From the NCBI GenBank assembly GCA_037447655.1, contig JBBHKE010001953.1, forward strand, positions 98,790 to 162,789: DNA of 64,000 nucleotides, in the 5' to 3' direction. The notes under the pieces are model-generated. The model saw nothing but the letters and a program-made list of their open reading frames with translations, was not told where the DNA came from and made no database searches. This document shows positions 1 through 54,200 of this stretch, piece after piece; position 1 is the stretch's first letter, and the number at the start of each line of letters is the position of its first letter. The position numbers and the translations under genes were made by a program. Source of the DNA: Zygnema cylindricum. Lineage: Eukaryota > Streptophyta > Zygnematophyceae > Zygnematales > Zygnemataceae.

Positions 1-966
1 GTACTCAGAGCAGGCAGTTTGCCAAAAGCCTCTAGGATGACCTCAACTCCTTGGTCTTTGCACTAGTATAGTTGACACTCAGACACTATACAGACAACCA
101 AATTGCACCCCTTGGAAGAGCTACATCCCTTAAGTCTGCCACAAAAAGAATCCTTGAATTTGCTCCTCTGAGCAGTTAATTATCAATGGTCAAAGATGAC
201 CTTTTATATAGGAGCTCTGTGAGAGAGAGGCGGCTACGTCTAATTTTCTAAGTCCTAAACCCCTCTCTAAACTCTCTTCTACTGATGTACGGAGCCAATT
301 AATAGTGTATAGAGTAAAGAAAGGTACTTGGTCCGAAGTACTTTCTGTACGACCATTCTACAACATGGCCAAAAAGACGACGCCTGCCATATCTGGGTTC
401 GCCATAGTATGTCCCGGAAATTTCGTCATCAATGTCATGCTGCCACGTGTCACCCGTTGTGGCTACGACCGTAAACCGCCAAATCGGCCATTCCGCGATG
501 CCGGCTTCTTTCTCCGCCGTTAGATTGATATCGATCTTAATTTATAACCGTTTAATATATAATGAGTACTTTTCGTTGTAACTTTATTTAACTATGTTTG
601 TGTGATTGTGGTCCGTTTGTCAATAAACCAAACTTCTCTATTTTGTCATGTTTAAGTAATTATCGTACCCTATATACTTCAGCACTGGTCTTAGACTAGA
701 GGGTAAGACTAATGGCTATTTTGACGGACGGTTGGTACCAAGATCAAATCCTGTGTCCGTGAATCCTTTTGGTGAGATTACTAAGGATCTTCCTTTTGAC
801 TCTATAAAGAGCATGGGCAGCCATGGCTCTAGCTTCTTCTCCAGCCTTCAGTGACTATGACAAGTATGGAGGCTTAGAGAGAAAAGCTACAAGCAAGCTG
901 CCTCTGCTTTTTCCTGCTTCTAATTAAATCAAATAAATAATCTAGAAAATACATTTTATTTCAACA
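1..966 (-). repeat. 3' LTR of element A
   Basis: Homologous to the LTR at 5440-6495 and to those of B1 and C. It ends at 966 in the element's TGTTGAAAT start, directly next to the minus-strand polypurine stretch AAAATAAGAGGAG (967-979). It contains a TATATAAAAGG-type TATA box on the minus strand near 205-215 and the antisense tRNA-like module at about 681-760. The first bases of the window correspond to the 3' end of the LTR. Confidence 0.85.
681..760 (+). other. tRNA-like module in LTR (element A, 3' LTR)
   Basis: Read on the plus strand, antisense to the element. A perfect 5-bp hairpin GTCTT/AAGAC (688-692 and 705-709) encloses an A-box-like GACTAGAGGG. A T-arm-like hairpin with loop ATCAAAT follows at about 738-755. 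The loop differs from the canonical TTCAAAT by one base. No convincing acceptor stem is seen, so it is a tRNA-derived or tRNA-mimicking element rather than a tRNA gene. Confidence 0.55.
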
Positions 967-979
967 CTCCTCTTATTTT

Positions 980-3900
980 CTAGTCACTTTTAATTTTAAG
1001 TCCACATCTCTTTCTGCAAAAAATTAATTTTGGAGAAGGTACAAGCTTAGTCATCATGTCTGGCACCATCTCACTGTCTGGTTTGTATTCTAGACTTATT
1101 ATTTTGTTCTCCACCTTTTCCCTAACAAAGCTAAGTCTGATGTCCATGTGTTTTGCTTTAAAATAATGTTTGGGATTAGCAACAATTGCAATTGCTGCTT
1201 GATAATCACAAAATATTTTCTGAATTCCACTCTTAAGATGCTCTAATTCACCAAGGAAGGATTTGACCCACATCAATTCCTTCACAGCAGAGCAAGATGC
1301 CATATACTCTGTCTCCATGGTAGACTGAGGAATGACCTTTTATTGTTTACTGTTCCAGCAACAAGCACCATTCCCCACATATAACACATATCTAGATGTA
1401 CATCTTCTCATCGGAGCATCCCCATAGCTGGCATCACTCCAAGTGGTGATGTCAGTGTTTTCCCCACCTAGATGCAGCCATAGATCTCTAGATCCTATGA
1501 GATATCTGAGGACCCTTTTAGCTGCTTCCCTATCAATTTTGGTAGGAGCATTCAAACCCCTAGTTAGCACTTCTACAGCTGCTGCCAAATCTGGTGTGGT
1601 AAAATTCATAAAATAAATCAGACTGCCCACTACTTGTCTATATGGAATAGTCTGCATAAACTTCTTTTCTTCTGGACCTAGTTCATCATCTATAATAAGG
1701 ATGTCTCCTTCCTCACTCCCCTCACTTCCCTTCTTTAGGTCCATGGGAGTCGTGCAACTGTTGGCTTTGTTCATCTGAAATTTTTCCACCATGTTTCCAA
1801 TTGCCTCTTTCTGAGTTAGTCTAATTATCCTCTTTTTCCTATCTCTCTCTACTTGTATTCCCAGAATGTATCTAGCCTCCCCCATATCCTTCATTTCGAA
1901 TCTTCCCTTTAGATCTGTTTTTAGTTTGTTAATTTTCTTTAGTGACTTACTTAGAACAACAAGGTCATCAACGTAAATTGCAATAAAGACGACACCTTCC
2001 TCATCTTCAAAAACATAAATTGATGGTCTGAACTAATGCGGATGTATCCTAGACCGGTAAGGAACTCATCAAGTTTCTTGTTCCATTGTTTGGGCACTTG
2101 TTTCAAACCATAGAGAGATTTGATCAGTCAGCATACCTTACTTTCCTCTCCTCGTTCCACGAATCCTTCCGGCTATCGCATGAAGATCTCCTCCTCTAGT
2201 TCTCCATGTAGAAAAGCTGTCTTTATGTCCATCTGGTGTACTTCCATGTCTTCTACTGCTGCCAGACTAAGAAGTATCTGGACCGAGAGAAATCTGATGA
2301 TCGGAGCGAAGGTTTCTTCATAGTCTATTCCCTCTTCCTGAGTAAAACCTTTCGCCACTAACCGGGCCTTATACCGCTCAATAGTATTGTTAGGATTCCG
2401 TTTTAGTTTGAAAACCCACTTACATCGAATTGGTTTTCTATCGGTTGGACAGTCCACCAACTCCCATGTGTCAGTCGCCATGATTGAAGCCATCTCTTCA
2501 TTGATGGTCGTCTTCCACCACTTTCTTTCCGGGCAATTCATTGCTTCTTCATATATTTGAGGTTCGTCTAGGTGAGACAGTTTAGTTACCTTGTTGTTAA
2601 CTTGTTTCTCTTGAAGCCTTTTGTTGCTTCTTCTTCCTCCCTCAAAATCTGCGGCCGAAATAGATGGTTCTTGTGGATTTTTTCGAATTACCACGACTTC
2701 TCCTCTGTCCCTCGGAAACATATTCGTTTCCACCACGTCTTTCGCTTCTGTCATTGGTATTTCTAGGTTGAAGTCTTTCTTTGTCTGTGTTTAATTTGCA
2801 AGGATATCATATGAACCTGCAAAAGTGTCATCTTCTTGAATATCTGGATAGTTACGAAGATGAACGTCATCAGAATTGTCTGCCTCAAATCTGATTCTGA
2901 CTAACTTTGAGGATTTAAAGGGATCTACCGACTTCCCTTCATCCATAGCTACCAGATGCTTTACTAAAATTATATCTTCTCTTTTTAGATCATACACTCT
3001 TTAACGTTTTACATCCTCATCATATCCTAGCAAGTATTCGGGTTTCCCTTTAGGATCTAGTTTCCAGTTTGATTTATCTGTATCTAAACCGAAGACTTTA
3101 CTACCGAAAACCTTTAAGTGAGATAGATGTGGTTTTCGGCCGGTCCATTTATCATATGGAGTTTGGCCATTCACAGCCGAAGTAAGTACTCTCTTTCTCA
3201 AATAATTAGCACAATTCATAGCTTCGTCCCAAAATCTTTTTCCTAACTCTTTATCTGACAACATACTCCGAGCACTATCATTTAGTGTCCTATTCAATCT
3301 CTTGGCAACACCATTCTGTTCCGGGTTTTCTAGAACTATCTTTTGATGTTGAACACCATCCTCCCTTAAGAACTCCTCAAACTGATTGGAGTTTTATTCC
3401 CCTCCATTGTCACTTCTTACTCTCTTTATTGGGGTCTCGTGAAGTTTCTCGGCCCATGCCTTATAATGTTTAAAATACTCTGGAGTTTCTGATTTGTTTT
3501 TCAGAAAGTATACCCGAGAGTACCGAAACCAATCATCGGTAATGGTTAGCATATATCTTTTTCCTCCGGGTGATGGCACTCTCGCCGGTCCCCAAATGTA
3601 CGTGTGTACCATATCAAGAACTTTTTCTCCTATATAAGTTGCTTCTTTTGGGAATGGTAATCTGTGTGCTTTACTTGGGCACACCCACTGCAATCACTTA
3701 CATTATCATTTTCCCCAAAGCGTATCCCTTCAACGACTCCCAACTTTTTCATTTCTTTTAACTTTTCTAGATTCACATGTCCAAGTCTCTTATGCCACAA
3801 TATAATATCATTGACACCAGCATAGTAAAGTTTGAGTTTTTCATTACTTAAAGCAAGCCTGAAAATTCTTTGGGCTACCTTTCTAAGCAGTGAAATACAC

Positions 3901-4290
3901 ATTTTCCTCAAAAAAAGCTGTAAACACTCCTTTTCTACTGCTAGTTTCAAATCCTTTATCATCTAATACAGATATAGAGATAAGGTTTTTTTTTAACACC
4001 GGAATAAATAATACATCGGAGAACGTAACTATTGAGGTTTTTCCCTCCACTATGACTTTCAGATCTACCGATCCTACAAAAGTGGTGGTCACTACTCTCC
4101 CATCCCCATATTCAATCTTTATTGTAGGGATCTTTCTCAGCTTAGTAAACAGATGCTTATCGTTGCACATGTGCATGGATGCACCTGAATCCACAATCCA
4201 ACCTCTTTCACCTTTAAGTTTGGCCGAAAGCACATTTCTCCTTTCGTGGAATTTCGACTTCTGTGTTTGCCTCCAACTCCTCATCCAAAA
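980..4290 (-). pseudogene. Element A pol: protease, integrase, RT, RNase H (broken)
   Basis: Read leftwards. The aspartic protease motif WIVDSGAS is near 4180. Next comes the GAG-pre-integrase zinc region (WHKRLGHV...CSGCAQ) near 3660-3830. The integrase core follows at 3390-3620 and 3000-3300; here the first catalytic Asp of HTDIWGP is Tyr, while the second Asp (SDNGGE) is kept. The RT N-terminal half (KWVFKLK...YKARLVAKGFTQEEGIDYEETFAP, HQMDIKTAFL) is at 2173-2530. The catalytic YVDDL near 1955 is intact. The RT end and RNase H (PYRQVVGSLIYF...WSDASYGD...STMETEYMASCSAVKELMW) are at 980-1894. Several frameshifts and stops separate these blocks. The enzyme set would copy and integrate the element, but this copy cannot make it. 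Confidence 0.9.
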
Positions 4291-4294
4291 AAAG

Positions 4295-5459
4295 TTAATC
4301 GCCCTCCTCATCGGATTCCTCCTCGAGTACCTGCATGACAAGTTCCTTTTTCTTCCCTCGTGGCTGACCCCCGATCTGCCCCTCCAACTCCTCATCTAAA
4401 AAGAGCTCATCGTCCTCGTCCTCGGATTCGGCCTCATGTACCTGTGTCAAAAGGGCCTTTTTCTTTCCTCTCGGGGTACCACCGGTCTGCCCCTCCTTTA
4501 ACCGAAGCTCGATTAGCTTAGTGCACTCTACCATATAGTGCCCAGGTTTCTTACAAAAATGACATACACCTTTGGGAGCCCTTGGTTTCGAACTCGTCGG
4601 TCTGATTTTTCTGCTCCCTCTCCCCATAATTTCCGACCGATTTCTGAGAATCCTTGTTCCTCCAATCGGTCGCAGTTGCCAAGGCTTGGCCACTCTTTCC
4701 TCCCCTTCAGATCTCAACCGTATTCTCCCGAACGAGAATCATCCCTACCACTGAGTTCCATATCCACCTTGAGTCCAGCAAGTCCTGCACACGGTTGACT
4801 ATGTTCTCGAACTCATCGGGTAACTTCATCAGTAAATAGTTAACCTTTTCTTTTTCACTAAAATCTTTTCCCGCACTCTCTAGCTCCATGAAAAGTGTAG
4901 CAAGCTCATTGCAAAAATCTAACATCTTCCCCCCATTGTATACATACACCTTAACTTTCTGATCACCCAACGTTTGTTGCTGATTCGTACCACTTCAGTA
5001 CATCTCTATGAGAGCCATCCAAAGATCGGATGCCCTTTCTACTTGCAAATGGGGACATGCAAGTCCTTAAGTGAGATGGCGTAGGATGAAGTGCTTTGCC
5101 GCCATATTGTTGAAGTCCCACGTTTCAGTATCATTCTCCTCGTTTCTCGGAATACGTAACATGAATGCCGAACCAGTTGTTATTGATGTGGTCGCCTCCT
5201 CCTTTCCTTTGTCCACCACCTCTCCTTCTTTTGTTTCCTTCGTTGAAGGTGGATCCTTTTTTCTGGTGAATATGCTTCCTCCAAACCCTGGAGGAATTAT
5301 AAGACTTGATGGACGCCCCAACCGTCCACTCACTATCCCCTAAAACCATTTTTCGCATAGAGCTCCTATCATCATACTTTCCCAGTATATGAAGCCAATT
5401 CCATTAAAGATTGGTACCCTAGAGGGTGGGCCCATAACTTGAAACTCTGAGACCTCCAT
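4295..5459 (-). pseudogene. Element A gag (copia type, broken)
   Basis: The start is the ATG at 5457-5459, which lies inside the 5' LTR (MEVSEF..., reading through the PBS as QVMGPPSRVP). The frame soon hits a stop and shifts. The later parts match the copia gag (UBN2-like) domain: DTETWDFNNMAAKHFILRHL near 5070-5130, then FCNELATLFMELESAGK and LLMKLPDEFENIVNRVQ at 4707-4930. A single CCHC zinc knuckle, CHFCKKPGHYMVEC, lies near 4535-4575 and is followed by an acidic linker leading to protease. Gag would form the virus-like particle and bind RNA. It is homologous to gag of C and B2 in this window. Confidence 0.85.
5424..5439 (-). other. Primer-binding site of element A (iMet anticodon arm type)
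   Basis: On the element strand the sequence directly after the LTR end (TTTCA) reads AGTTATGGGCCCACCC. It matches the complement of the anticodon arm of plant initiator tRNA-Met except at its two ends. The ATG is in frame with gag. Confidence 0.8.
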
Positions 5460-6495
5460 AAGTCCTCAGAGTAAACAGCTTCCAAGAAGCCTCTAGGATA
5501 ACTTGACCCCTTTGTGTTCTAGCAAAAATAACTGCCATCCTGGCAGACAAAAACTTTGACCAACTTCACCCATGTTAAGACAAGACTCCCCTGAGTCGAT
5601 AGCAAAAAGAATCTATGAATTTGCTCCTCTGAGCAGTAAGTTATGGAGGATCAAAGTTGACCTTTTGTACAGAAGCTCTTTGGGAGAGAGGGTCCTATCT
5701 TCTAATTTTTCAAAGTCCTATCTCTCTCACAGACTCTATCTACTGATATACGGAGCCAATCAGATTTCGGTTTTGTACACAAAAGTACAGCTGTCGGTGT
5801 ACTTTCTGTACGGCCATTGTACAACATGGCCTAAATGTCGACACGTGGTATGTCCGGATTTGCTCCTTTAATCTTCGGAGATGCCGCGATCCAATGTCAT
5901 TCCGCCACGTGTCATTTGATGTGGCGATGACCACAAACCGCCGAAATCCTCTTCCGCGATCTCGGCGTTAATTCCAGCCGTCCGATTTTAATTCACATTT
6001 AATCGAGGCCGTAATAAATACATGCGGGATATTCGTTTCACTAAAGGAATAAATGCGCGGTATTGGTTTCGTATTCGTACCTGAATCCGTACTTTTACAT
6101 TTACTGGATGTATGTCACCCGTAAATAGTTAGAGTTAAATGAACTATCCAACGTTTAAATGTTTAAATAAATATCAAACCCTATAGTACGTAACACTACT
6201 TCTAGAATTAACGGCTAAGGCTAAAGGCTACCGGTTGTCTGCCGGCCGGTAGGTACCAGGATCAAATCTTGTGGCCTGCACATATCTTTTAGTAAATTAA
6301 ACCCCTAACTAAAATATATATTCCCGTAAACCTCTGGATAGCCTAGGTAGCCATGGCTCTAGCTCCCTCTCAAATTTCTCAGTGACTGCGACAAGTTTGA
6401 GAGTTGGAGAGAGAAGTTAGAGGTAGACTGCCTCGGCTTCTTTCTTATTTCTATGCAGACCTAGAAAATACTTTAAAAGACCATTAATTTCTACA
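5440..6495 (-). repeat. 5' LTR of element A
   Basis: About 1056 bp, beginning TGTAGAAAT on the minus strand at 6495 and ending TTTCA at 5440. It is clearly diverged from the left LTR, so the insertion is old. The antisense tRNA-like module is at about 6190-6282 and GTAC motifs cluster around 5795-5825. Confidence 0.85.
6190..6282 (+). other. tRNA-like module in LTR (element A, 5' LTR)
   Basis: Plus strand, antisense to the element. The T-arm-like segment at 6255-6275 has loop ATCAAAT. It is preceded by a block (ACGGCTAAGGCTA) that aligns with the D-arm region of the other LTR copies. The 3' stem half has decayed (CTTGT). Confidence 0.45.
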
Positions 6496-7918: not shown

Positions 7919-8919
7919 TGCAACTTTCAGACCTCCATTAGTACTCAGAGTAGGCAGCTTACTAGAAGCCTGTAGGATATCCTCAATCCCTTAGTCTTTG
8001 TATGAGTATTACTGACACCTTGACAAAATACAAACTAACCAGAGTGCAGCCCTTGGAAAAGCAGACTCCCTAGAGTCTACTACAAAAATAAACCTTGAAT
8101 TTGCTCCCCTGAGAAGTTGATTATCAATGGTCAAAGATGACCTTTTATACAGGAGCTCTCTGGGAGAAAATGGCGGCTACCTTTAACTTTCCTATGTCCT
8201 AAACCCCTCTCTAATCCCTCTACTACTTAAGTACCGAGCCAATCAATTCACTGTACAGTACAGAAAGGTTCTTGGCTCACAGTACTTTCTATACGGCCAT
8301 TGTACGACATGGCCAAGAAGCTGACGCCTACCATATCTGGGTTCCCCATGGTATGTCCCAGAGATGCCGCTATCCAATGTCATGTTGCCACGTGTCACCC
8401 GTTGTGGTTGTGACCGCAAACTGCCAAATCGCCTATTCCGTGATCCCGGCTTCTTCCTTCGCCGTCCGATTGATACTGGCCTTAATTTACAGCCGTTTAA
8501 AATACAAGCAATACTTTTCGATGTGATTCTATCTAACTGTCAATGTGATTGTGGTCCGTTCATCAGTTAAATGAACTTCTCTATTTCCACGTCTTCAAGT
8601 AGTTATCGTACCCTATGTACTTCAACACAGATGTTAGGCTACATGGTAACGACACTAGACTACTTGAACGGACGGTACGTACCAGGATCAAATCCTGGGT
8701 CCGTCAACCATTTTGGTAAGTTACCCAAAGGGCTGCCTTTTGACTCTAGGGGAAGCATAAGCAGCCATGGCTTTAGCTTCCTCTCCAGCCTTTAGTGACT
8801 ACGGCAAGTATAAGGGCTAGAGAGAGAAATTAGAAGCAAGTTGCCTCTGATTTTTCCTGCTTCTATTTAGATCATTTAAGTAACCTAGAAAATACCTAAG
8901 AAAACCTTTAATTTCAACA
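7919..8919 (-). repeat. 3' LTR of element B1
   Basis: About 1 kb. It ends at 8919 (TGTTGAAAT on the minus strand) next to the polypurine tract AAATAAAGGGAG. A minus-strand TATA box (TATAAAAGG) lies near 8140-8150. Confidence 0.8.
8625..8706 (+). other. tRNA-like module in LTR (element B1)
   Basis: Plus strand, antisense to the element. It has a perfect T-arm-like hairpin CCAGG-ATCAAAT-CCTGG (about 8681-8697), preceded by GTTA...TAAC framing GGCTACATGG, an A-box-like segment. GACGG and CCGTC flank the T-arm and could extend the stem. Confidence 0.55.
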
Positions 8920-14489: not shown

Positions 14490-15360
14490 TGTTTTTGAAA
14501 TGTTAGTTTCGTGCGTACGCCACATTTTGTGCGCACGCGACGTTTCGTGTGAAGATTATTACCGGAAGTAATGTGGTTGTACAAATGGAGGTTCCAATGG
14601 ATTTGTGGATTGGGGGAGTAAATGTATGAGTAAAATTAAAGGGACGTGATGGAGTAATTTAGTGGCGCGGAATGCGTTAAGAAATGGACGGCGGATTGCG
14701 ACGCGATCCGACGTGAAATATACAAAATGTACGTCGCCAGTACGTAGCATCTAATTTGGACAAATGTACTTCATATGCGACAGGCGACGTTTATGACAAA
14801 TGACGTGTACCTTATTTGTGACAATCCGCATTTAATGCAAAGGACGCATCTGCGGTACGGAAATGATTTTGGTTGTACTATTATAATATTGGCAAGTGGA
14901 CGTGAATTCGCTTCTCGATGTCGTGGGATATTTGACGACTCGTGTGGATTTCGTTTGGATTTTGTGACCACGTGGCGCGACATCGAGGGTGCCGGGTAAG
15001 AGCTACGGACGGCGGAAAAGGGCCGCCGCTATTTTTCAATTAGTGGGAAAGCGAAATCACGTCAATCACACGATATATATTTTTGGACGGCCCGGATTAT
15101 TTGACGAGATTCGTGGAGTCTTGTTGAGTTACACGCAATGACTCAGCATACAATTTTGTTGTCGGTGTAAATATTTGGTTCAACATTGTTTTGTCCCTTT
15201 TGTGAATTAATTATTAGTGTACGTTTACTTAATTTGACATACTTAGAAGTATTCGGGTATATCTACATTAATTGAGGTAGTTTGTAGATAGCGTACGGCT
15301 TTTATGCCTCCGTACATTCAGCAGTAAGCTCTTGTATATATTTGTAGGACTTAGTCATTT
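14490..15360 (+). repeat. Repeat S, copy 1 (putative LTR)
   Basis: Starts TGTTTTTGAAA and contains several GTGCGTACGC-type motifs, a GCGATCCG palindromic block, and a TATA-like TGTATATATTTG near its end (about 15334). It aligns along about 0.85 kb with 27612-28470 and, in reverse, with 17690-17918. The TG start, the TATA position and the presence of a short MAENGYGQQAP frame at 15777 suggest an LTR followed by a leader. The 3' boundary is not certain. Confidence 0.5.
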
Positions 15361-21182: not shown

Positions 21183-21363
21183 TGTTAAATTTGTGTATTT
21201 TCTAGGTCTGAATTTATTCTGTGTGTTTGTCATATGGTCTTGTCTAAGTCATCCATACTTGTCGTAGTCACTGGAAGACAGAGATAGCCATGGCTGCCCC
21301 CATAGTCAAAAAGAAGAAACAGGCAAAAACAGGCAGGAAAACTGATAGTTGGCCATTATGCTG

Positions 21364-21440
21364 CTCTAAACCGGATTTGAACCTGGGTCTATTGTTTGCT
21401 ATGGAGACGTAAGCCTTATCCAATAAGGCGTTACCGAAAC
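21364..21440 (-). other. tRNA-like module in LTR (B2, 5' LTR)
   Basis: Minus strand, antisense to the element. A perfect 5-bp D-arm-like hairpin GCCTTATTGGATAAGGC (21413-21429) resembles the D arm of plant tRNA-Arg. About 30 nt further on comes a canonical B box GGTTCAAATCC (21373-21383) in a T-arm setting, with only part of the T stem paired. No good anticodon or acceptor stem is seen. The A and B boxes together could drive Pol III transcription towards the outer end of the LTR. Confidence 0.6.
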
Positions 21441-21724
21441 GATACACGTGACGGGTTTCAAAGATATATAAACATTAACGCAACAGCTACTTAACAGCAG
21501 ACTAACCAAAAGGAGCAATTCATGCATGTACGCGAATCTGAACCATGTAAAATATGTTTTGATCGCACGGCCGGCATTATAGCCGCCACGCGAAGTGAGC
21601 TTTTGGTGGCATACGGAGATAGCGTCACGCGGTGCCACGTGGCGCCACATTATTTGATACCGGAGAAGATGGGAGGAAGAACCATGGCTTCCGATTTGAC
21701 AGGTGTCACCTTGTAGACCTTGTC

Positions 21725-21772
21725 GTACAATGGACGTACAATAAGTACATCGCCCATTGTACCTTCTTGTAC
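21725..21772. promoter_or_regulatory. Phased cluster of five GTAC motifs in the B2 LTR
   Basis: GTAC starts at 21725, 21736, 21745, 21759 and 21769, roughly one helical turn apart, about 105-150 bp before the TATA box. The same arrangement recurs in the LTR of C (from 40628). GTAC is the core recognised by plant SBP-domain and algal copper-response regulators; that link is inference only. Confidence 0.45.
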
Positions 21773-21875
21773 TTTATAGTGTTTCTATTGGACTAGGGTT
21801 TAGTAGTAGGTAGTCGTGAGTAGGCAGACCAAGACTTAGTGATATTTAGGTACCTCTCTCTAAGAGAGCTTGTAA

Positions 21876-21884
21876 CTATAAAGG
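21876..21884 (+). promoter_or_regulatory. TATA box of the B2 5' LTR
   Basis: CTATAAAGG, followed by TCATCTTTGACC. The same TATA-AGGTCA(T/A)CTTTGACC block recurs in the other LTRs, so it most likely marks the U3/R promoter. Confidence 0.6.
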
Positions 21885-22231
21885 TCATCTTTGACCAGCC
21901 ATAACTTAATGCTCGGGTGAGCAAATTCAGTGATTCTTTTTGCAGCGGACTTAAGGGAGTCCAATCTACACAAGGGTGTAGTCGGTCAGAGTCTTTGCGT
22001 GCCAGGGTGGCACTTATTCAGTGGGAAAGTCAAATTGGGGAATATTGTCCAAAACACATATTGAAGCTTTGCATTCTGTGGTGGAACTGAGCACACAGAA
22101 GGTCTTCTCTTCACATGGGTGAAGGTGTATTGGGGTTCTAATTGTCAAGGGATCATTCATTTGGGTTTATATCAACTTGGAGTCGGCACTATCTAGATTA
22201 GCTTCTTTTGGATCTGCGAATTCTGTGGGCA

Positions 22232-23254
22232 ATGGAGCCCATAGAATTTCAGGTTATGGGCCCACCATCTAGGGTGCCTATGTTCGATGGAACAGACTTC
22301 ACTTATTGGGAGTTTATTATGGAGGGATTGCTTTTCGAGAAGCACTTATGGGGAATTGTTTCGGGACAAGTGAGATGTCCGCCACCTGGCTTTGGAGGAG
22401 GTTACTATGGAGAATCATCTGAGGCTGCTCAGAATATCAACCGGAGTTCAGATGAATCAAAAGGTGAAGGGAAAAACCTTTCCGTGGATAAGGATATAGT
22501 GGAGAAGGATAAAGGGACACTTATGGTGAGGGGAGCTATGCTCTCCGCCACATCTTCACTTAGAGGGGTTATAAGTAAAACTGAAGTAAATGATAGTAAA
22601 ATTTGGGAGTATAAAAACACTATAGCTAAACATTTTATACTTAGATATGTGTCTAAGTCCATAGCTATCACTCTTTTAAGTCTTACCAAGTCTTCGGAAA
22701 TAAGGGAAACACTAAGGCAGATTTATAAGAGTGAGACTATTCAGAGGCAGCAGTTAGTAAAACAAGAAATAGAGGCCTATGTTTATAAAGGCGGTAACAT
22801 GATAGAGTTTTGCAATGATATTGCTGCGTTATATGTTGAGCTTGCTAGTGCGGGGTATGTAGAATCTGAGGAGAGAAAGATCAATACACTACTCATGAAA
22901 CTCCCAGATGAGTACGAAAACATCATTAATCGTATGCAGGCAATGGATGGCTCCTCATGGACTTGGAGCTTTACCATGGGGATAATTCTTGTGAGGGAAA
23001 GCACTTTGGAGCTTCTTAGGGGAAGTGAGAGGGTAACTGCCTTTACAGCTGGTGGTGATTGGCGGAAGCGTGATGAGAGGAACGGCGGTGACGAGCGGAA
23101 GCGTGATGAGAGAAAGAAAGACAAAGGTAAACCTTATCGGAACTTTGGTGGAAAGAGAGGGAGAGCAAAAGAAAGGGGAGCTTTGAAAAAGGGTGTTTGC
23201 TTCTTTTGTAGAGAACCGGGTCACTATATAGAGGAGTGTCCTTGCTTTGAATAA
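22232..23254 (+). CDS. Gag of B2 (copia type, intact)
   Basis: A 340-residue open frame. The ATG at 22232 (MEPIEF) lies within the LTR; translation then runs through the PBS (QVMGPPSRVPMFDG), so the alternative start is the ATG of the PBS at 22256. The N-terminal part (FTYWEFIMEGLLFEKHLWGI) and the core (KHFILRYVSKS..., YVYKGGNMIEFCNDIAALY, LLMKLPDEYENIINRMQ) are the UBN2-like gag domain of copia. A basic Arg/Lys-rich stretch (WRKRDERNGGDERKRDERKKDK) comes next. A single CCHC knuckle, CFFCREPGHYIEEC, ends the frame. It stops at TAA 23252-23254 just after the knuckle. Gag would form particles and package RNA. The intact frame in a young copy suggests it is or was expressed. Confidence 0.85.
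   Translation: MEPIEFQVMGPPSRVPMFDGTDFTYWEFIMEGLLFEKHLWGIVSGQVRCPPPGFGGGYYGESSEAAQNINRSSDESKGEGKNLSVDKDIVEKDKGTLMVRGAMLSATSSLRGVISKTEVNDSKIWEYKNTIAKHFILRYVSKSIAITLLSLTKSSEIRETLRQIYKSETIQRQQLVKQEIEAYVYKGGNMIEFCNDIAALYVELASAGYVESEERKINTLLMKLPDEYENIINRMQAMDGSSWTWSFTMGIILVRESTLELLRGSERVTAFTAGGDWRKRDERNGGDERKRDERKKDKGKPYRNFGGKRGRAKERGALKKGVCFFCREPGHYIEECPCFE
22252..22267 (+). other. Primer-binding site of B2 (iMet anticodon arm)
   Basis: GGTTATGGGCCCACCA directly follows the LTR. It is the exact complement of the anticodon arm of plant initiator tRNA-Met (TGGTGGGCCCATAACC, recalled from established tRNA sequences). Drosophila copia uses a cleaved initiator tRNA at the same place. The central ATG is in frame with gag. 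Confidence 0.85.
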
Positions 23255-24343
23255 CTTAGAAGTTGGAATGTGAAAGAGGAGGAAGAAGGGGAAGAGGAGA
23301 AAGAGGATGAAGAAATATTGGAGCTTCTTCACATCGGTAGAATGGAGAAGAGAGAGAAGTACACAGAAATTACACGAAAGCAACGATGTGCTTTTGGAGG
23401 TATAAGGGAAGTAAAGGGAAGGGAGGTACTTGAGGGAGTTAGAAATGATGAAGATGTCAAGGAGTGTAAAAAGTATAACTTAGAGATGAGAAAGTCAGAT
23501 CTAGAATCTATAATTGAAAAAGGGAAAAGTAAAAATAATGAGGATAGTTTTATAGATATTTTGGAAACAGAAAACTGGTCGCAAAGGGAGACTTCAACGG
23601 ATTCCGAGGAAAGGGGAGAAGTAAATCTAGAGGGGGTTTTAAAAGATAGGGGAGAAGAGGAATATTTAATGAAAGGTTTAGGGGAGGAGAAATATTTATT
23701 GGGAATAAAAATAGAAAGTGATAGCGGAAAGAATTACTTGGGAGAGAGTGAGGAAAGTTCAAAAAATGGGATGAGTATCAAGGATAAAAATATGAGTACG
23801 GAAGACGTAGATCTTATGAGGAACTTAGCGGGGATACTTGTTTTTTCGAAAAATTTGGGGGGTAATGGACTTGACATCACTAATGGGAGTGATGCCATCT
23901 ATGAAGGTGCGCCTGTAAAAGGGTTAGCATCGGGGTGTGTGTTGCAGATTGAGGATGTGGCTGGCTGTTTAAATTGCAAGAGGGAAATCGGATTTTGTGT
24001 GGATGGAAAAGTGATGAGGTGGATAAAATCTTTGCTCGGATTTATAAAAAGTGAGATGCTAAATAAAATGTGTGATCAGCAAGATGGAATGTTAATTTCA
24101 GCTCATCTAATAGACCTTTTAAAATATGAGGGTATATTCTTAAAGTTTAATTATAGGAAAAGAACGAAAAAAAAAAAAAAAAAAAAAAAAGGGTTTTTGT
24201 TTTTGTTGTTTTTATTTAGTGGGAGTTGGCGCAATAGAAGACTAAAAAATAAGGGGAGTGTTAAATTTGTGTATTTTCTAGGTCTGAATTTATTCTGTGT
24301 GTTTGTCATATGGTCTTGTCTATGTCATCCATACTTGTCGTAG
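23255..24343 (+). CDS. B2 second open frame, condensed pol-derived (357+ residues)
   Basis: It continues in the gag frame after the single TAA at 23252-23254. The first ATG in the frame is at 23342, so expression would need readthrough or an internal start. The KQRCAFGG stretch matches the linker just before protease in B1 and C. Further on, the frame aligns weakly with scattered parts of pol: MKGLGEEKYLLGIKIESD with the RT tail, then LGGNGLDITNGSDAIYEGAP, GCVLQIEDVAGCLNCKRE and KVMRWIKSLLGFIKSEM...CDQQDGM with RNase H. Protease, integrase and RT cores are absent. The product is unusually rich in Glu, Lys and Gly. It runs through an A24 tract (24167-24190) and into the 3' LTR. Function is unknown; it may be kept only as spacer. 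Confidence 0.55.
   Translation, partial: LRSWNVKEEEEGEEEKEDEEILELLHIGRMEKREKYTEITRKQRCAFGGIREVKGREVLEGVRNDEDVKECKKYNLEMRKSDLESIIEKGKSKNNEDSFIDILETENWSQRETSTDSEERGEVNLEGVLKDRGEEEYLMKGLGEEKYLLGIKIESDSGKNYLGESEESSKNGMSIKDKNMSTEDVDLMRNLAGILVFSKNLGGNGLDITNGSDAIYEGAPVKGLASGCVLQIEDVAGCLNCKREIGFCVDGKVMRWIKSLLGFIKSEMLNKMCDQQDGMLISAHLIDLLKYEGIFLKFNYRKRTKKKKKKKKGFLFLLFLFSGSWRNRRLKNKGSVKFVYFLGLNLFCVFVIWSCLCHPYLS
24167..24190 (+). repeat. A24 tract in B2
   Basis: Twenty-four A in a row inside the second open frame, read as Lys codons. It lies about 70 bp before the 3' LTR, so it is not a poly(A) tail of a LINE. Confidence 0.9.
24246..24258 (+). other. Polypurine tract of B2
   Basis: AAAATAAGGGGAG directly before the 3' LTR, identical to that of element C (39952-39964). 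It primes plus-strand DNA synthesis in LTR elements. Confidence 0.85.
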
Positions 24344-25327
24344 TCACTGGAAGACAGAGATAGCCATGGCTGCCCCCATAGTCAAAAAGAAGAAACAGGC
24401 AAAAACAGGCAGGAAAACTGATAGTTGGCCATTATGCTGCTCTAAACCGGATTTGAACCTGGGTCTATGGTTTGTTATGAAGACGTAAGCCTTATCCAAT
24501 AAGGCGTTACCGAAACGATACACGTGACGGGTTTCAAAGATATATAAACATTAACGCAATAGCTACTTAACAGCAGACTAACCAAAAGGAGCAATTCATG
24601 CATGTACGCGAATCTGAACCATGTAAAATATGTTTTGATCGCACGGCCGGCATTATAGCCGCCACGCGAAGTGAGCTTTTGGCGGCATACGGAGATAGCG
24701 TAACGCGGTGCCACGTGGCGCCACATTATTTGATACCGGAGAAGATGGGAGGAGGAACCATGGCTTCCGATTTGACAGGTGTCACCTTGTAGACCTTGTC
24801 GTACAATGGACGTACAATAAGTACATCGCCCATTGTACCTTCTTGTACTTTATAGTGTTCCTATTGGACTAGGGTTTAGTAGTAGGTAGTCGTGAGTAGG
24901 CAGACCAAGACTTAGTGATATTTAGGTACCTCTCTCTAAGAGAGCTTGTAACTATAAAGGTCATCTTTGACCAGCCATAACTTAATGCTCGGGTGAGCAA
25001 ATTCAGTGATTCTTTTTGCAGCGGACTCAGGGGAGTCCAATCTACACAAGGGTGTAGTCGGTCAGAGTCTTTGCGTGCCAGGGTGGCACTTATTCAGTGG
25101 GAAAGTCAAATTGGGGAATATTGTCCAAAACACATATTGAAGCTTTGCATTCTGTGGTGGAACTGAGCACACAGAAGGTCTTCTCTTCACATGGGTGAAT
25201 GTGTATTGGGGTTCTAATTGTCAAGGGATCATTCATTTGGGTTTATATCAACTTGGAGTCGGCACTATCTAGATTAGCTTCTTTTGGATCTGCGAATTCT
25301 GTGGGCAATGGAGCCCATAGAATTTCA
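24259..25327 (+). repeat. 3' LTR of B2
   Basis: 1069 bp, same length as the 5' LTR, about 1% different. It contains the same tRNA-like module (24440-24516), GTAC cluster and TATA box. Its end still carries ATGGAGCCC, the gag start. Confidence 0.95.
24440..24516 (-). other. tRNA-like module in LTR (B2, 3' LTR)
   Basis: D-arm-like hairpin at 24489-24505 and canonical B box at 24449-24459 on the minus strand, both unchanged from the 5' LTR. Three of the LTR differences fall between them. Confidence 0.6.
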
Positions 25328-34555: not shown

Positions 34556-35728
34556 TGGCCCTCAGAGTATGCAGATCCAAAAGAAGCTAATCTAGATAGT
34601 GCCGACTCCAAGTTAATATAAACCCAAGTGACTGACCCCTTGACAGTCAGAACCCCAATATAGATTCACCCCTGTGAAATAACACTTTCTGTGTGCTCAG
34701 TTCCACCACAGAATGCAAAGTTAGAATATGAGATTTGGACACATTCACCCACTTTGACTTTCCCTTAGAAATACAGCCACCCTGGCAGACAAAAACTCTG
34801 ACCGACTACACCCCTGTGTAGCCTAGACTCCCCTGAGTCCGCAGCAAAAAGAATCACTGAAAATGGTCAAGTAAATTGATAGTTATGGCTGGCCAAAGTT
34901 TGCCATTTATACAGGGTGCTCTCTGGGAGAGGCAGCTGCCTACCCAAAATTTATCTAAGTCCTATTCCCTCTCTAAAACTCTATCTACTGAAGTACGGCA
35001 CCAATCAAATTACTGTATCGTACATAAAAGTACAGGTGCCGGTGTACTTTATGTACGGCCATTGTACGACATGGCAAAAATGTCGACACGTGTCATATCC
35101 GGATTTGTTCCCGTAATCTCCGGAGTTGCCGCAATCCAATGTAGTGTTACCACGTGTCACTTAATGTGGCGGTGATCGCAAACCGCCAAAATCGTACGCC
35201 GCGATCTCGGCATCCTTCGCGGCCGTCCGATCAATTTGGATTTCAATCGTGGCCGTCATAAATACCTGCGCGGTATTCTTTCCGGCGTCAAACAAACCGC
35301 GCGGTATTTATTTCGTAATCGTACCGTACGTCGTACTTTCCACAACTGTTTCTATGCAGTATCCATATAGTTCTAGTTAAATGAATTATTCTTATAGTAA
35401 CTATTTAAATAAATATCATACCTCCTAATATTTAATATAATTAAGACTATCTGGATAAGACTACCGGCTATTGTCGGTTTGACAAGTGGCAGGTACCAGG
35501 ATCAAATCCTGGACCTGGCGAAACTATCTTTTACAGAAAACCCCCTATAAAACAACTGTCTGTCTCCCTCTAGACAGCACAGGCAGCCATGGCTAACTCC
35601 TCCTTCAGTCTTCAGTGACTGCGACAAGTGTGGGGACTTGAGGAGGAGTTAGAGGCAGGCTGTCAATATCTACTATTTTGCTTTTTATTTTGCAATCTCT
35701 AGACCTAGAAAATACTTGAATTCCAACA
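34536..35728 (-). repeat. 5' LTR of truncated element D
   Basis: 1193 bp, TGTTGGAATTC at 35728 to TTTCA at 34536. It is a mosaic: the half next to gag (34560-34900) matches the U5 side of B2, while the outer half with the tRNA-like module matches A, B1 and C. It abuts element C head to head. Confidence 0.85.
35435..35521 (+). other. tRNA-like module in LTR (element D)
   Basis: Plus strand, antisense to D. Perfect T-arm-like hairpin CCAGG-ATCAAAT-CCTGG (about 35498-35514), flanked by CAGGT and ACCTG that extend the stem. The D-arm region (GACTATCTGGATAAGACT) keeps the GG-ATAAG core. Confidence 0.6.
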
Positions 35729-39964: not shown

Positions 39965-41023
39965 TGTAGAAACTAATGATTTTATTAGTATTTTCTAGGT
40001 CTTAAAAGAAATATAGAAGTCGAGGCAGTCTATCTCTAACTTCTCTCTCCAACTCTCAAACATGTCGCAGTCACTGAGAAATTGGAGAGGAAGCTAGAGC
40101 CATGGCTACCTTGGCTATCCTGAGGTTTACGGGAATTTTATATTAGGGTTTATTTATTTAATTAAAAGGTATGTGCCGGCGGCAGGATTTGATCCTTGTA
40201 CCTACCGGCCGGCAGACAGGAAATAGCCGGTAGCCTTAGCCGTTTAATCTAGCGGTAGTGTTACGTAGCATATAGTTTGATATTTATTTAAATATGTATA
40301 CGTGCGATAAACCATTTAACTGAAATGAATTACGGGATACATAGATCCAGTAATATATAATGTACGACTTACGGTACGGACAAAAATCAGTACCGCGCAT
40401 TTGTTTCGTAAATGAAACAAATACCGCGCATGTATTTATTACGGCTACGATTAAAGCCGAATTTAATCCGACGGCCGGGATTAGCGCCGAGATCGCGGAG
40501 GAAGATTTCGGCGGTTTGTGGCCATCGCCACATCGGATGACGCGTGGCGAAATTCCGTTGGATTGTGGAATCTCCGGAGATTATGGCACCGAATCCGGAT
40601 TTGACATGTGTCGACATTTTGGCCATGTCGTACAATGTCCGTACATAAAGTACACCGGCAGCTGTACTTTTGCGTACGGAACTCAATTCTGATTGGTTTC
40701 GTACATCAGTAGATAGAGTCTGTGAGAGAGATAGGACTTAGAAAAATTAGAAGATAGGACCCCCTCTCCCAGAGAGCTTCTGTACAAAAGGTCAACTTTG
40801 ACCCTCCATAACTTACTGCTGAGGGGAGCAAATTCAGAGATTCTTTTTGCTATCGACTCAGGGGAGTCTTGTCTTCACAGGGATGAAGTTGGTCAGAGTT
40901 TTTGTCTGCCAGGGTGGCATTTATTTTTGCTTAAACACAAAGGGGTTAGGATTATCCTAGAGGCTTCTTGGAAGCTGTCCACTCTGAGGACTTATAGAGG
41001 TCTCAGAGTTTCAGTATGTTTGG
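39965..41023 (+). repeat. 3' LTR of C
   Basis: 1059 bp, TGTAGAAACT to TTTCA. It shares all landmarks with the LTR of A: tRNA-like module, GTAC cluster near 40628-40680, and TACAAAAGGTCAACTTTGACC around 40782-40803. The right flank gtatgtttggg is itself the end of an R-type LTR. Confidence 0.9.
40173..40262 (-). other. tRNA-like module in LTR (element C)
   Basis: Minus strand, antisense to the element. B-box-like GGATCAAATCC at about 40192-40202. Blocks ACGGCTAAGGCTACCGGC and GCCGGCCGGTAG align with the 5' LTR of A. GCCGGC on both sides of the T-arm could pair. Confidence 0.5.
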
Positions 41024-51207: not shown

Positions 51208-54200
51208 ATGGCGGCCATGTTCACCGTCGTCGTGACGCTTTTGTTATCATGCCACGTGGCACTCATAACGGGAGCTTACAAAGGACCCATGGCCGAGACA
51301 GACAGTAATATTCCTTCTCCTTATCCCTCCTTCCTCCACGCATTTTTGCTCCTCTATCCCTCCGTTCGCACGTGCATAGTACCACTCTCACTCCCTCCCT
51401 TCGGCCGTCGCTCTTTGCTTCTGCAGAGTCCGGCGCCGCCTCTCGGTCTGTTTTCTCTCTAACATTTTTATGACTTCACACGTGTGAAACACCACACTAA
51501 ATTGCTGCCTTAGGACTTCACGCGTGTGAAACACCACACTAAATTGCTGCCTTAGGACTTCACACGTGTGAAAGACCACACTAAATTGCTGCCTTGTGAC
51601 TTCACACGTGTGAAACACCACACTAAATTGCTGCCTTAGGACTTCACACGTGTGAAACACCACACTAAATTGCTGCCTTAGGACTTCACACGTGTGAAAC
51701 ACCACACTAAATTGCTGCCTTAGGACTTCACACGTGTGAAACACCACACTAAATTGCTGCCTTATGACTTCACACGTGTGAAACACCACACTAAATTGCT
51801 GCCTTAGGACTTCACACGTGTGAAACACCACACTAAATTGCTGCCTTAGGACTTCACACGTGTGAAACACCACACTAAATTGCTGCCTTGTGACTTCACA
51901 CGTGTGAAACACCACACTAAATTGCTGCCTTAGGACTTCACACGTGTGAAACACCACACTAAATTGCTGCCTTAGGACTTCACACGTGTGAAACACCACA
52001 CTAAATTGCTGCCTTAGGACTTCACACGTGTGAAACACCACACTAAATTGCTGCCTTAGGACTTCACGCGTGTGAAACACCACACTAAATTGCCGCCTTA
52101 GGACTTCACACGTGTGAAAGACCACACTAAATTGCTGCCTTGTGACTTCACACGTGTGAAACACCACACTAAATTGCTGCCTTAGGACTTCACACGTGTG
52201 AAACACCACACTAAATTGCTGCCTTAGGACTTCACACGTGTGAAACACCACACTAAATTGCTGCCTTAGGACTTCACACGTGTGAAACACCACACTAAAT
52301 TGCTGCCTTAGGACTTCACACGTGTGAAACACCACACTAAATTGCTGCCTTGTGACTTCACACGTGTGAAACACCACACTAAATTGCTGCCTTAGGACTT
52401 CACACGTGTGAAACACCACACTAAATTGCTGCCTTAGGACTTCACACGTGTGAAACACCACACTAAATTGCTGCCTTAGGACTTCACACGTGTGAAACAC
52501 CACACTAAATTGCTGCCTTGTGACTTCACACGTGTGAAACACCACACTAAATTGCTGCCTTAGGACTTCCTACGCTGGTTGGTTGTGCAGAGGCGGCGTT
52601 GGAGGCCATGAGGGCCGCCGTAAAAAACAAGGCGGCGTTTCCGGAGATTAAATGCGACGCGTATTATTACACGTGCGATGGTTCTGGTCGCGTGTATTTG
52701 CTGTGAGTACTGTACTGTACTTGCCGCTCATTGTTAAAACGATTAAACGGTATACTTTAAATGTTTAAACATTTAAACGACTGCAAGAAGGTTGCAGGCT
52801 AAGGTGGTAACTGTATACACTGACATGTGATGTGTACGGTTTTAGGAAAGAATTCCGCACTGTATTTTATGTGACCTTTTCGTTTTGGGTCGTTGAAATC
52901 TTTCGCACGTAATTTGAGGAAGAGGGAGAAGGAGAGAGGAGTAGAGAGTGTGACAGAGAAAGAGCGAGATTGAAAGTTAGATTGACAGAGAGAGGGAGAG
53001 AGAGAGAGCAGGCTCATCTCTCTCGCTCTCCTCGTGAAAATAATGAGGGGGAGAGAGAGGGAGAAGGACAAGGAGAAGGAGAAAGAGAGGAGAGAGGGAG
53101 GGAGAGGGGGAGAGGGAGGGGGAGGAGAGAGGAGGGGGAGGGGGAGGGGGAGGTGGGAGGGGGAGGTGGGAGGGGGAGGTGGGAGGGAGAGGGGGAGGGG
53201 GGTTGGAGAAGGGGGAGGGGAATGGGGGACGGAGGAGGGGGAGGGAGGAGGGGGAGGGGGAAGGAGGATGGAGAGGGGGAGGGGGAGGGGGAGGGGAAGG
53301 TGGAAGGACGGAGAAAGGGGAGAGAGAGAGAGAGACCCCCTCTCCCGCTCTTCCGCTCTTCCTCCTCTTCCGCTCTCTCTCCCCCTTTAAGTTTGTAGGA
53401 TCTTAGCAAAGTGAGAGAGAGAGAGGGAGAGAGAGCAAGCGAGAGCAGGTTCCTCTATTTCTCTCTGAGTTTTACCACTGCACTATTGTCCTGCGTGACT
53501 CGACACTGTTTTTTGCTTTATATTTAGTGTGCGCATATCAGTGGCTGCCTAATCCGTACAGGAAATCGCACTATATTTAGTGTGGGTGTTTACAGCCGCT
53601 CTCTCTACTTCGATGACTTTTGAGACCGATAATAAGGAAAGGGAGACTTTTGAACGGGGCTTCGGGAGGGAGACAAAAGTGGGAAGAGGGAGGTGAGGGA
53701 ACAGGAGAGAGGGGAGAAGAGAGAAGAGAGGTTTGGGAAGGGGAGAGAGGGAACGAAGTGCCTTATTCAACAACCAATGGGAGGGGGGAGTGCAGAGTTC
53801 TATCTAACAAAGGATTGCAGGGACATATAGCACCAGAGATTGGGAACCTCACACGACTGACACAATTGTGAGTGGATATTGAGAGAGAGAATCTACCTCC
53901 TACCAAAAGAAATTTGAAAATGTGGGAGGGAGCTCAACGAGAATTCCTGATCGGATATCCATGATACACTTGTTAGTTTGCATTCCATACTAAATAGATC
54001 TTCTGGTTGAGCGGTTTCACAGGTATATGCAGTCCAACCGTTTGAGTGGAAACATTCCATCGTCCATCGGTCAACTGAAATTACTTGAAGACTTGTAAGA
54101 CGTATGACATGATAGTTTTATTTGCACGATAGTTTTTCTAACTTATTGCAAGGGTACTTTAAATGCTTGTGGTTTCATCCAGCGACCTATATTGGATAAG

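Follow-up and report, generated by a model that had tools for sequence, protein, structure and literature searches.

Why should the LTRs of Copia retrotransposons in the streptophyte alga Zygnema cylindricum carry, on the strand opposite to the element, what looks like the internal promoter of a tRNA gene? The question arises from a 64-kb stretch of DNA (hereafter "the window"), which contains several Copia elements and for which the original prediction proposed that seven LTR copies hold an antisense tRNA-like Pol III module under selection. From the sequence comparisons presented below we conclude that this module, situated in U3, is probably a working Pol III type-2 promoter, with a predicted product of about 95 nt that is antisense to U3.

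The elements themselves are recognizable as Copia, since Pfam matches to gag (PF14223), integrase (PF25597, rve) or RVT_2 were obtained for four of the five ORFs tested; those to rve and RVT_2 are under Pfam's own cut-off. The five best integrase relatives of the window Copia show 42–52% identity, while for the gag protein of the element termed B2 no relatives were detected at an E-value of 0.001. B2 is gag-only; its LTRs are each 1069 bp long, and alignment of the 5' and 3' copies reveals 12 differences. We take the element to resemble the terminal-repeat retrotransposons with gag (TR-GAG). Its features relevant to the argument are:

21183 to 22251, plus strand: 5' LTR of B2, with TG...CA ends (from the 5'/3' LTR alignment)
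24259 to 25327, plus strand: 3' LTR of B2 (from the same alignment)
22252 to 22266, plus strand: primer binding site of B2, GGTTATGGGCCCACC, directly after the 5' LTR
21877 to 21883, plus strand: Pol II TATA-like element in the 5' LTR of B2 (from sequence; its neighbourhood is conserved)

The primer binding site GGTTATGGGCCCACC is presumably complementary to the anticodon arm of the initiator tRNA-Met (half-tRNA primer type), and 14 of its letters are found again in two other elements of the window. B2 (21183–25327) also possesses a second ORF of 357 aa (23270–24343) without a Pfam match, and is flanked by the imperfect repeat TCACAG/TCATAG.

An A-box-like arm, a B box and a TTTT run are present, antisense in U3, in all seven window LTRs, at the seven sites and on the strand that had been predicted:

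21340 to 21475, minus strand: antisense tRNA-like unit of the B2 5' LTR, from the upstream AT block to beyond the B box (alignment coordinates)
21413 to 21429, minus strand: A-box/D-arm part GCCTTATTGGATAAGGC of the B2 5' LTR (from sequence)
21373 to 21383, minus strand: B box GGTTCAAATCC of the B2 5' LTR (motif scan)
21338 to 21341, minus strand: TTTT of the B2 5' LTR, resembling a Pol III terminator (from sequence)
24449 to 24459, minus strand: B box of the B2 3' LTR, with TTTT at 24414–24417; A box and TTTT as in the B2 5' LTR
648 to 774, plus strand: unit of LTR A (element on the minus strand), with the B box at 741–751 (one mismatch) and TTTT at 767–770
6159 to 6295, plus strand: unit of LTR B1 (element on the minus strand), with the B box at 6259–6269 (one mismatch) and TTTT at 6287–6290
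8591 to 8718, plus strand: unit of LTR E3 (element on the minus strand), with the B box at 8685–8695 and TTTT at 8711–8714
35401 to 35535, plus strand: unit of LTR C (element on the minus strand), with the B box at 35499–35509 and TTTT at 35529–35532
40159 to 40295, minus strand: unit of LTR D (element on the plus strand), with the B box at 40185–40195 and TTTT at 40164–40167

The B box and the D-arm part of B2 read exactly as claimed, and the T-arm sequence CCAGG-ATCAAAT-CCTGG, or worn forms of it, is seen in the other five distinct LTRs of the window. The A box of LTR C is weak, its best match containing three mismatches. The TTTT stop downstream of the B box adds to the initial description; the two are 31 nt apart in both LTRs of B2 and 15–19 nt apart in the remaining five. 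The Pol II TATA-like element and the antisense unit are on different strands and about 400–540 bp apart.

On both strands of the 64 kb the exact motif GGWTCRANNCC occurs at six sites, namely five of these LTR modules and one true tRNA-Glu gene, against an expectation of 1.9 under a Markov-1 model (30 draws), or 0.57 if an A box and TTTT are also required. In a sample of 264 kb (the window and 20 arbitrary 10-kb stretches), RGWTCRANTCY was found at 19 sites, of which 15 are in these LTRs, one is in a tRNA gene and three are elsewhere, a warning that tallies of B boxes in genomes like this one may consist mostly of LTRs; all 11 sites followed by TTTT at a distance of 10–36 nt are LTR modules. 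A scan of viral contigs with CCAGGATTTGATCCTGG returned 12 loci, none with a tRNA gene, and these were judged to be due to chance. The resemblance of the modules to tRNA does not extend to the covariance model suggested as a check, as the Rfam tRNA model had no match in the four modules tested, even at an E-value of 10. ARAGORN with default settings reported only the tRNA-Glu in the window, and at a low threshold it made only poor and inconsistent calls on the modules. Given the lack of an Rfam match and of covariation in the T and D stems (see below), we read the unit as a tRNA-type promoter with a hairpin rather than as a tRNA.

To follow the module beyond the window we used a near-invariant U3 anchor outside it, which occurs at 15,299 sites of the 353-Mb assembly (7653 + 7646, with at most one mismatch); the reversed anchor pattern occurs at only 14 + 21 sites, hence this Copia lineage must be very large. 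The analyzed set of 38 LTR copies comprises the six distinct window LTRs, 12 copies picked by their flanks and 20 picked by the anchor, the latter two groups being chosen regardless of the module. Flank matches gave 22 places in all, of which 12 remained after 10 near-duplicates of the B2 type had been dropped; LTRs matched by a downstream flank alone fall outside the sample, and worn copies (L053, L014 with a weak flank match of E 0.009, L069, L071 and L078) were retained. The 38 copies are not independent, as the two from L046 are near twins and several of the anchor-picked ones are similar to LTR D.

A B-box-like motif, worn in some copies, is found in the same place in 38 of 38, the place in each copy being set by the motif and by the distance to an antisense CCATGG (in L071 by CCATGG alone), a procedure that favours the motif. 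The core G-W-T-C-R-A-N-T-C is exact in 32 copies and damaged in six, and within 60 nt round the module the better match to the B box is on the antisense strand in every one of the 38. A search of both strands that makes no use of position identified the module as the best or joint best B-box match in 33 of the 38 copies: in 15 of 18 (11 sole, four joint) when stretches of 380–471 nt were scanned, and in 18 of the 20 copies picked by the anchor, where no other match was as good. The distance from G19 to G53 ranges from 37 to 47 nt, and that from a start-like AAC to the first TTTT, which gives the predicted length of the RNA, from 81 to 101 nt with a median of 95. A deeper group, represented by one copy each in L043, L049, L055 and L059, has GGTTCGAGTC or close forms of it at the same place, and GGTTCGAGTC is another spelling of the tRNA B box. 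In this group a short hairpin follows the T run, with the sequence GAGTGAC-ATAA-GTCACTC in the L043 and L059 copies. At a further locus (L017, 372–2451) we found a B2 LTR inserted in a B1-type LTR, on the upstream side of the B1-type antisense unit.

If the module is a promoter, the positions read by the Pol III machinery should have changed more slowly than their surroundings. On a tree of the 38 copies, the core positions of the B box (53, 55, 56, 58, 60 and 61) underwent 1.0 parsimony steps per column, compared to 6.27 for all columns and 6.29 for background columns never in CpG, a background from which the anchor columns were excluded because the 20 anchor-picked copies have a perfect anchor by choice. 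When six columns are drawn at random, a set as slow as the core comes up about once in 100,000 draws. The alignment is anchored by the motif, and poorly aligned flanks inflate the background, so that the adjoining T stem is a fairer control; its positions changed at 6.25 steps per column. T55, T60 and C61 are kept in all 38 copies and G53, C56 and A58 in 36, while the variation allowed is A/T at 54, A/G at 57 and A/G/T at 59. These three positions, which are freer in tRNA genes, accumulated 3.0 steps per column; most of the variation of the B box falls where tRNA B boxes are free. The window of the B box and T arm is also the best conserved run of 17 columns within U3 columns 200–520 (0.882, the next one 0.686), and none of 5000 column shuffles reaches this value; in the whole LTR two other windows are slightly above it (0.894 and 0.886). 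The expectation that the box positions are conserved above their surroundings is thus borne out for this part of U3.

The three TTT columns of the T run underwent 1, 1 and 0 steps, a rate equal to that of the B-box core, and TTTT is present at most 25 nt from C61 in 36 of the 38 copies; in a comparable window it occurs in 17 of 18 copies, against a background of 14%. Six positions of the A arm (A9, G10, A14, G18, G19 and A21), picked after the column table had been viewed, have a mean of 3.5 steps versus 7.67 for their neighbours (P-value 0.0002; 0.0004 on recheck). With A14 assigned to its other possible column the P-value is 0.002, and for the eight informative positions of the A-box consensus the comparison is 5.38 versus 7.52 steps (P-value 0.033). 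The mean match to this consensus is 6.22 of 8, with a null value of 5.49. The upstream AT block, with 6.13 steps per column, is not slower than the columns at large. These counts indicate strong constraint on the B box and the T run and moderate constraint on the A arm, whereas the stem beside the B box is free to change.

Sites that bind only TFIIIC through a B box (ETC sites) are known in yeast and mammals, and the module could be such an insulator or chromosome-organizing site, without productive transcription by Pol III. The much stronger constraint on the B box than on the A box is what this explanation would lead one to expect. However, a TFIIIC-only site requires neither a T run nor an A arm, and hence the constraint on the former, as strong as that on the B box itself, and the slower change of the latter relative to its neighbours both count against it. 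We therefore regard it as unlikely, albeit the most serious competitor of a Pol III promoter.

The claim of selection has to be qualified for the youngest copies: in 28 recent members of the B2 family no slowness of the B box is seen, its divergence being 2.9% and that of the rest 2.0%. Dead copies in a young family decay neutrally, and this absence of slowness is what is expected of them and no proof of function. The same finding would also agree with a neutral relic of a tRNA or SINE that had been inserted into an ancestral LTR, and a SINE insertion is the origin proposed by Kojima for Helenus elements (PMC10886601). Yet between families the core changed about six times more slowly than neighbouring columns of the same history, which largely refutes neutral persistence, and a relic is in our opinion very improbable. 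Nor do these rates show the single recent tRNA or SINE insertion, neutrally inherited, that had been named as the case against the original prediction. As judged from the deeply diverged LTRs, in which the module is conserved above the surrounding U3, the data support the view that it is old and selected and does not stem from one recent insertion.

The hairpins fared differently from the boxes. It had been proposed to test whether compensatory changes keep the T-arm and D-arm stems; neither shows covariation (T stem: 137 of 188 cells paired, shuffles 133.5; D stem: 85 of 152, shuffles 82.4), and these hairpins were rejected as the selected feature. Covariation was found instead in an outer stem, at most eight pairs long, within which the T-arm-like loop lies, for example:

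40173 to 40216, minus strand: covarying outer stem in LTR D, TGCCGGC...GCCGGCA (covariation test)

In this stem 215 of 287 cells are paired, while shuffles, which leave the relatedness of the copies in place, give a mean of 178 and a maximum of 199, with none of 2000 reaching 215; the stem was first noticed by eye in two copies and its columns were chosen after the alignment had been viewed. Shifted versions of it score 0.29–0.49, and two of its pairs each occur in five standard types. Wobble pairs, counted by RNA strand, number 23 and 22 and so favour neither strand.

A second hairpin of about 90 nt adjoins the outer-stem module in U3; its tip is the near-invariant anchor ACTTGTCGYAGTCACTG. 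It is located in 40018–40120 of LTR D and at the same place in other LTRs, e.g. around 862, 6393, 8806 and 35626. Its folding z-score is −1.0 in B2 and between −3.9 and −6.1 in the other five distinct window LTRs, and in 16 non-redundant copies (after four false anchor matches had been dropped) 287 of 314 cells pair, with shuffles giving a mean of 266.7 and a maximum of 277, while the covariation term of RNAalifold is unfavourable (+0.6). Wobble counts of 24 sense versus 9 antisense lean to the element's own RNA, and this hairpin could be a packaging or 3' RNA signal.

The covarying outer stem and the structured hairpin next to it could be taken to mean that the module, too, is a hairpin signal in the RNA of the element (for packaging or 3' processing), or else the site of another DNA-binding protein, its likeness to tRNA boxes being accidental. 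Such an accident would have to reproduce the distribution of fixed and free positions seen in the B box of tRNA genes, together with a slow A arm and a T run, while the hairpin stem beside the box drifts freely, and we give this explanation very little credence.

Another possibility is that U3 in the sense orientation pairs with the T arm of the initiator tRNA-Met, as in Ty3, where one part of the bipartite primer site is in U3 (PMC5371799). From the window alone this idea was attractive: the primer site of the element is of the initiator half-tRNA type, 20 of 23 nt of the initiator's variable loop and T arm are matched by LTR C, and in five of the six window LTRs the module is where the sense LTR forms its best duplex with the 3' half of the tRNA, a duplex that in three of them (C, D and E3) beats all 30 shuffles. 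B2, however, forms no such duplex, and over the 38 copies the number of matching nt, out of 23, is as low as 8 (median 17), on which grounds the model was rejected. Moreover, G57 of the initiator loop is kept in four of 38 copies, A60 in none and A54 in 27, the T stem drifts at the background rate, and the model would leave both the A-arm positions and the T run unexplained. A role in binding the primer tRNA thus appears highly doubtful.

We return to the Pol III promoter as the preferred interpretation. On the strand that opposes the element, the A-box-like arm, B box and T run have the spacing of a tRNA gene; TFIIIC would be expected to bind to the boxes, and Pol III to transcribe toward the outer end of U3 and to stop at TTTT, although a run of four T residues is possibly a weak terminator in plants. 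Through the module the element would probably gain a second RNA polymerase that works against its own strand. In the 5' LTR antisense transcription would proceed outwards from the element and, with less certainty, the bound complex might act as a roadblock or boundary for the Pol II promoter of the LTR, keeping read-through from the host and the spread of silencing away from it. The unit in the 3' LTR would run counter to the transcript of the element, and its RNA would be complementary to the 3' untranslated part of that transcript. Of these uses we favour the roadblock or boundary at the 5' LTR, by analogy with the antisense MIR of Polr3e, for which interference of Pol III with Pol II was shown (PMC5358760). 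That case resembles ours in opposing an antisense Pol III unit to Pol II and may serve as a model for the proposed roadblock, but the MIR is a SINE in a host intron and not part of an LTR. A more far-reaching and tentative possibility is that the LTRs of gag-pol Copia elements encode their own Pol III gene on the opposite strand, whose RNA of about 95 nt would end in the covarying hairpin, similar to the top half of a tRNA, and a U run. Supplied by some 15,000 LTRs and complementary to the 3' end of the genomic RNA, it might tune reverse transcription and copy number in trans, while the complex would insulate each LTR.

How new is such an arrangement? It had been thought undescribed, which holds only in part, as tRNA-like LTR promoters are known from Helenus, albeit in short, non-coding elements where they are a source of template RNA (PMC10886601). 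Helenus elements are TRIMs ("TRIMp3") of 311–1263 bp without genes, with conserved tRNA-derived A and B boxes in their LTRs, in most cases without a functional tRNA, and the role assigned to the boxes is production of the template RNA (PMC10886601). Fungal Helenus have been tied to Copia, and most use a half-tRNA primer site, often that of iMet (PMC10886601). The window LTRs share with them A- and B-box-like sequences, but they are about 1 kb long (the B2 LTR alone has 1069 bp), belong to Copia elements of the gag-pol type as well as to a gag-only one, and have a TATA-like element of their own. In addition, the boxes are antisense here (38 of 38 copies), whereas we infer a sense orientation in Helenus from the role stated in the paper, in whose main text the word "antisense" is absent (PMC10886601). 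Kojima considered it unlikely that Helenus-like and autonomous elements have a long LTR stretch in common (PMC10886601).

Cassandra, likewise, has a Pol III promoter lodged in plant LTRs, as predicted here; it is non-coding, and its promoter, derived from 5S rRNA, drives the element's own RNA (PMC10886601). The window module is instead tRNA-like and not derived from 5S rRNA, for which no match was found in the window at the gathering score. Half-tRNA-Met primer sites have been described in plants for the Copia groups Osser, Bryco and part of Gymco-II (PMC6317226), to which the initiator half-tRNA sites at 22252 and in two other window elements are similar, but in the consulted sections of that work no tRNA-like LTR module is described for them (PMC6317226). 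Retroviral Pol III units offer a further parallel, in that they too combine a type-2 Pol III promoter with an LTR element in which Pol III meets Pol II. The miRNA cluster of bovine leukaemia virus is in sense orientation and outside the LTR, and simian foamy virus and MLV also carry Pol III units. The bovine leukaemia virus cluster, transcribed by Pol III, makes miRNAs (PMC4992882), while the unit reported here is tRNA-like and antisense in U3. In a search by titles and the beginnings of abstracts, outside subscription journals, no paper was found to describe gene-bearing Copia with a tRNA-like unit placed antisense in the LTRs. Pol III boxes in LTRs are thus already known, with Helenus as the nearest case; what sets the present lineage apart, within the literature covered, is their antisense placement in Copia of the gag-pol type.

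The described LTR promoters for Pol III, those of Cassandra and Helenus, serve tiny non-coding elements. In the lineage studied here the predicted Pol III unit is next to a Pol II-type promoter, faces the opposite way and has been kept while the Copia lineage diversified. If our prediction is correct, nature offers here a case in which the sharing of a single LTR by Pol II and Pol III can be tested; the genome would contain TFIIIC sites by the thousand, and the unit would be a candidate for a device by which a retrotransposon limits or insulates itself.

Two further observations concern the window itself. Element E1 (1–6492) looks mosaic: its 5' LTR has parts similar to that of element D (88%) and its 3' LTR parts similar to that of E3 (80%), while its gag is near that of D (93%) and its pol nearer to that of E3. 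The region 51342–52691 consists of a 42-bp tandem repeat, with inner 300-nt stretches that are 96–99% alike; on the minus strand its 14-residue frame stays open over 385 codons.
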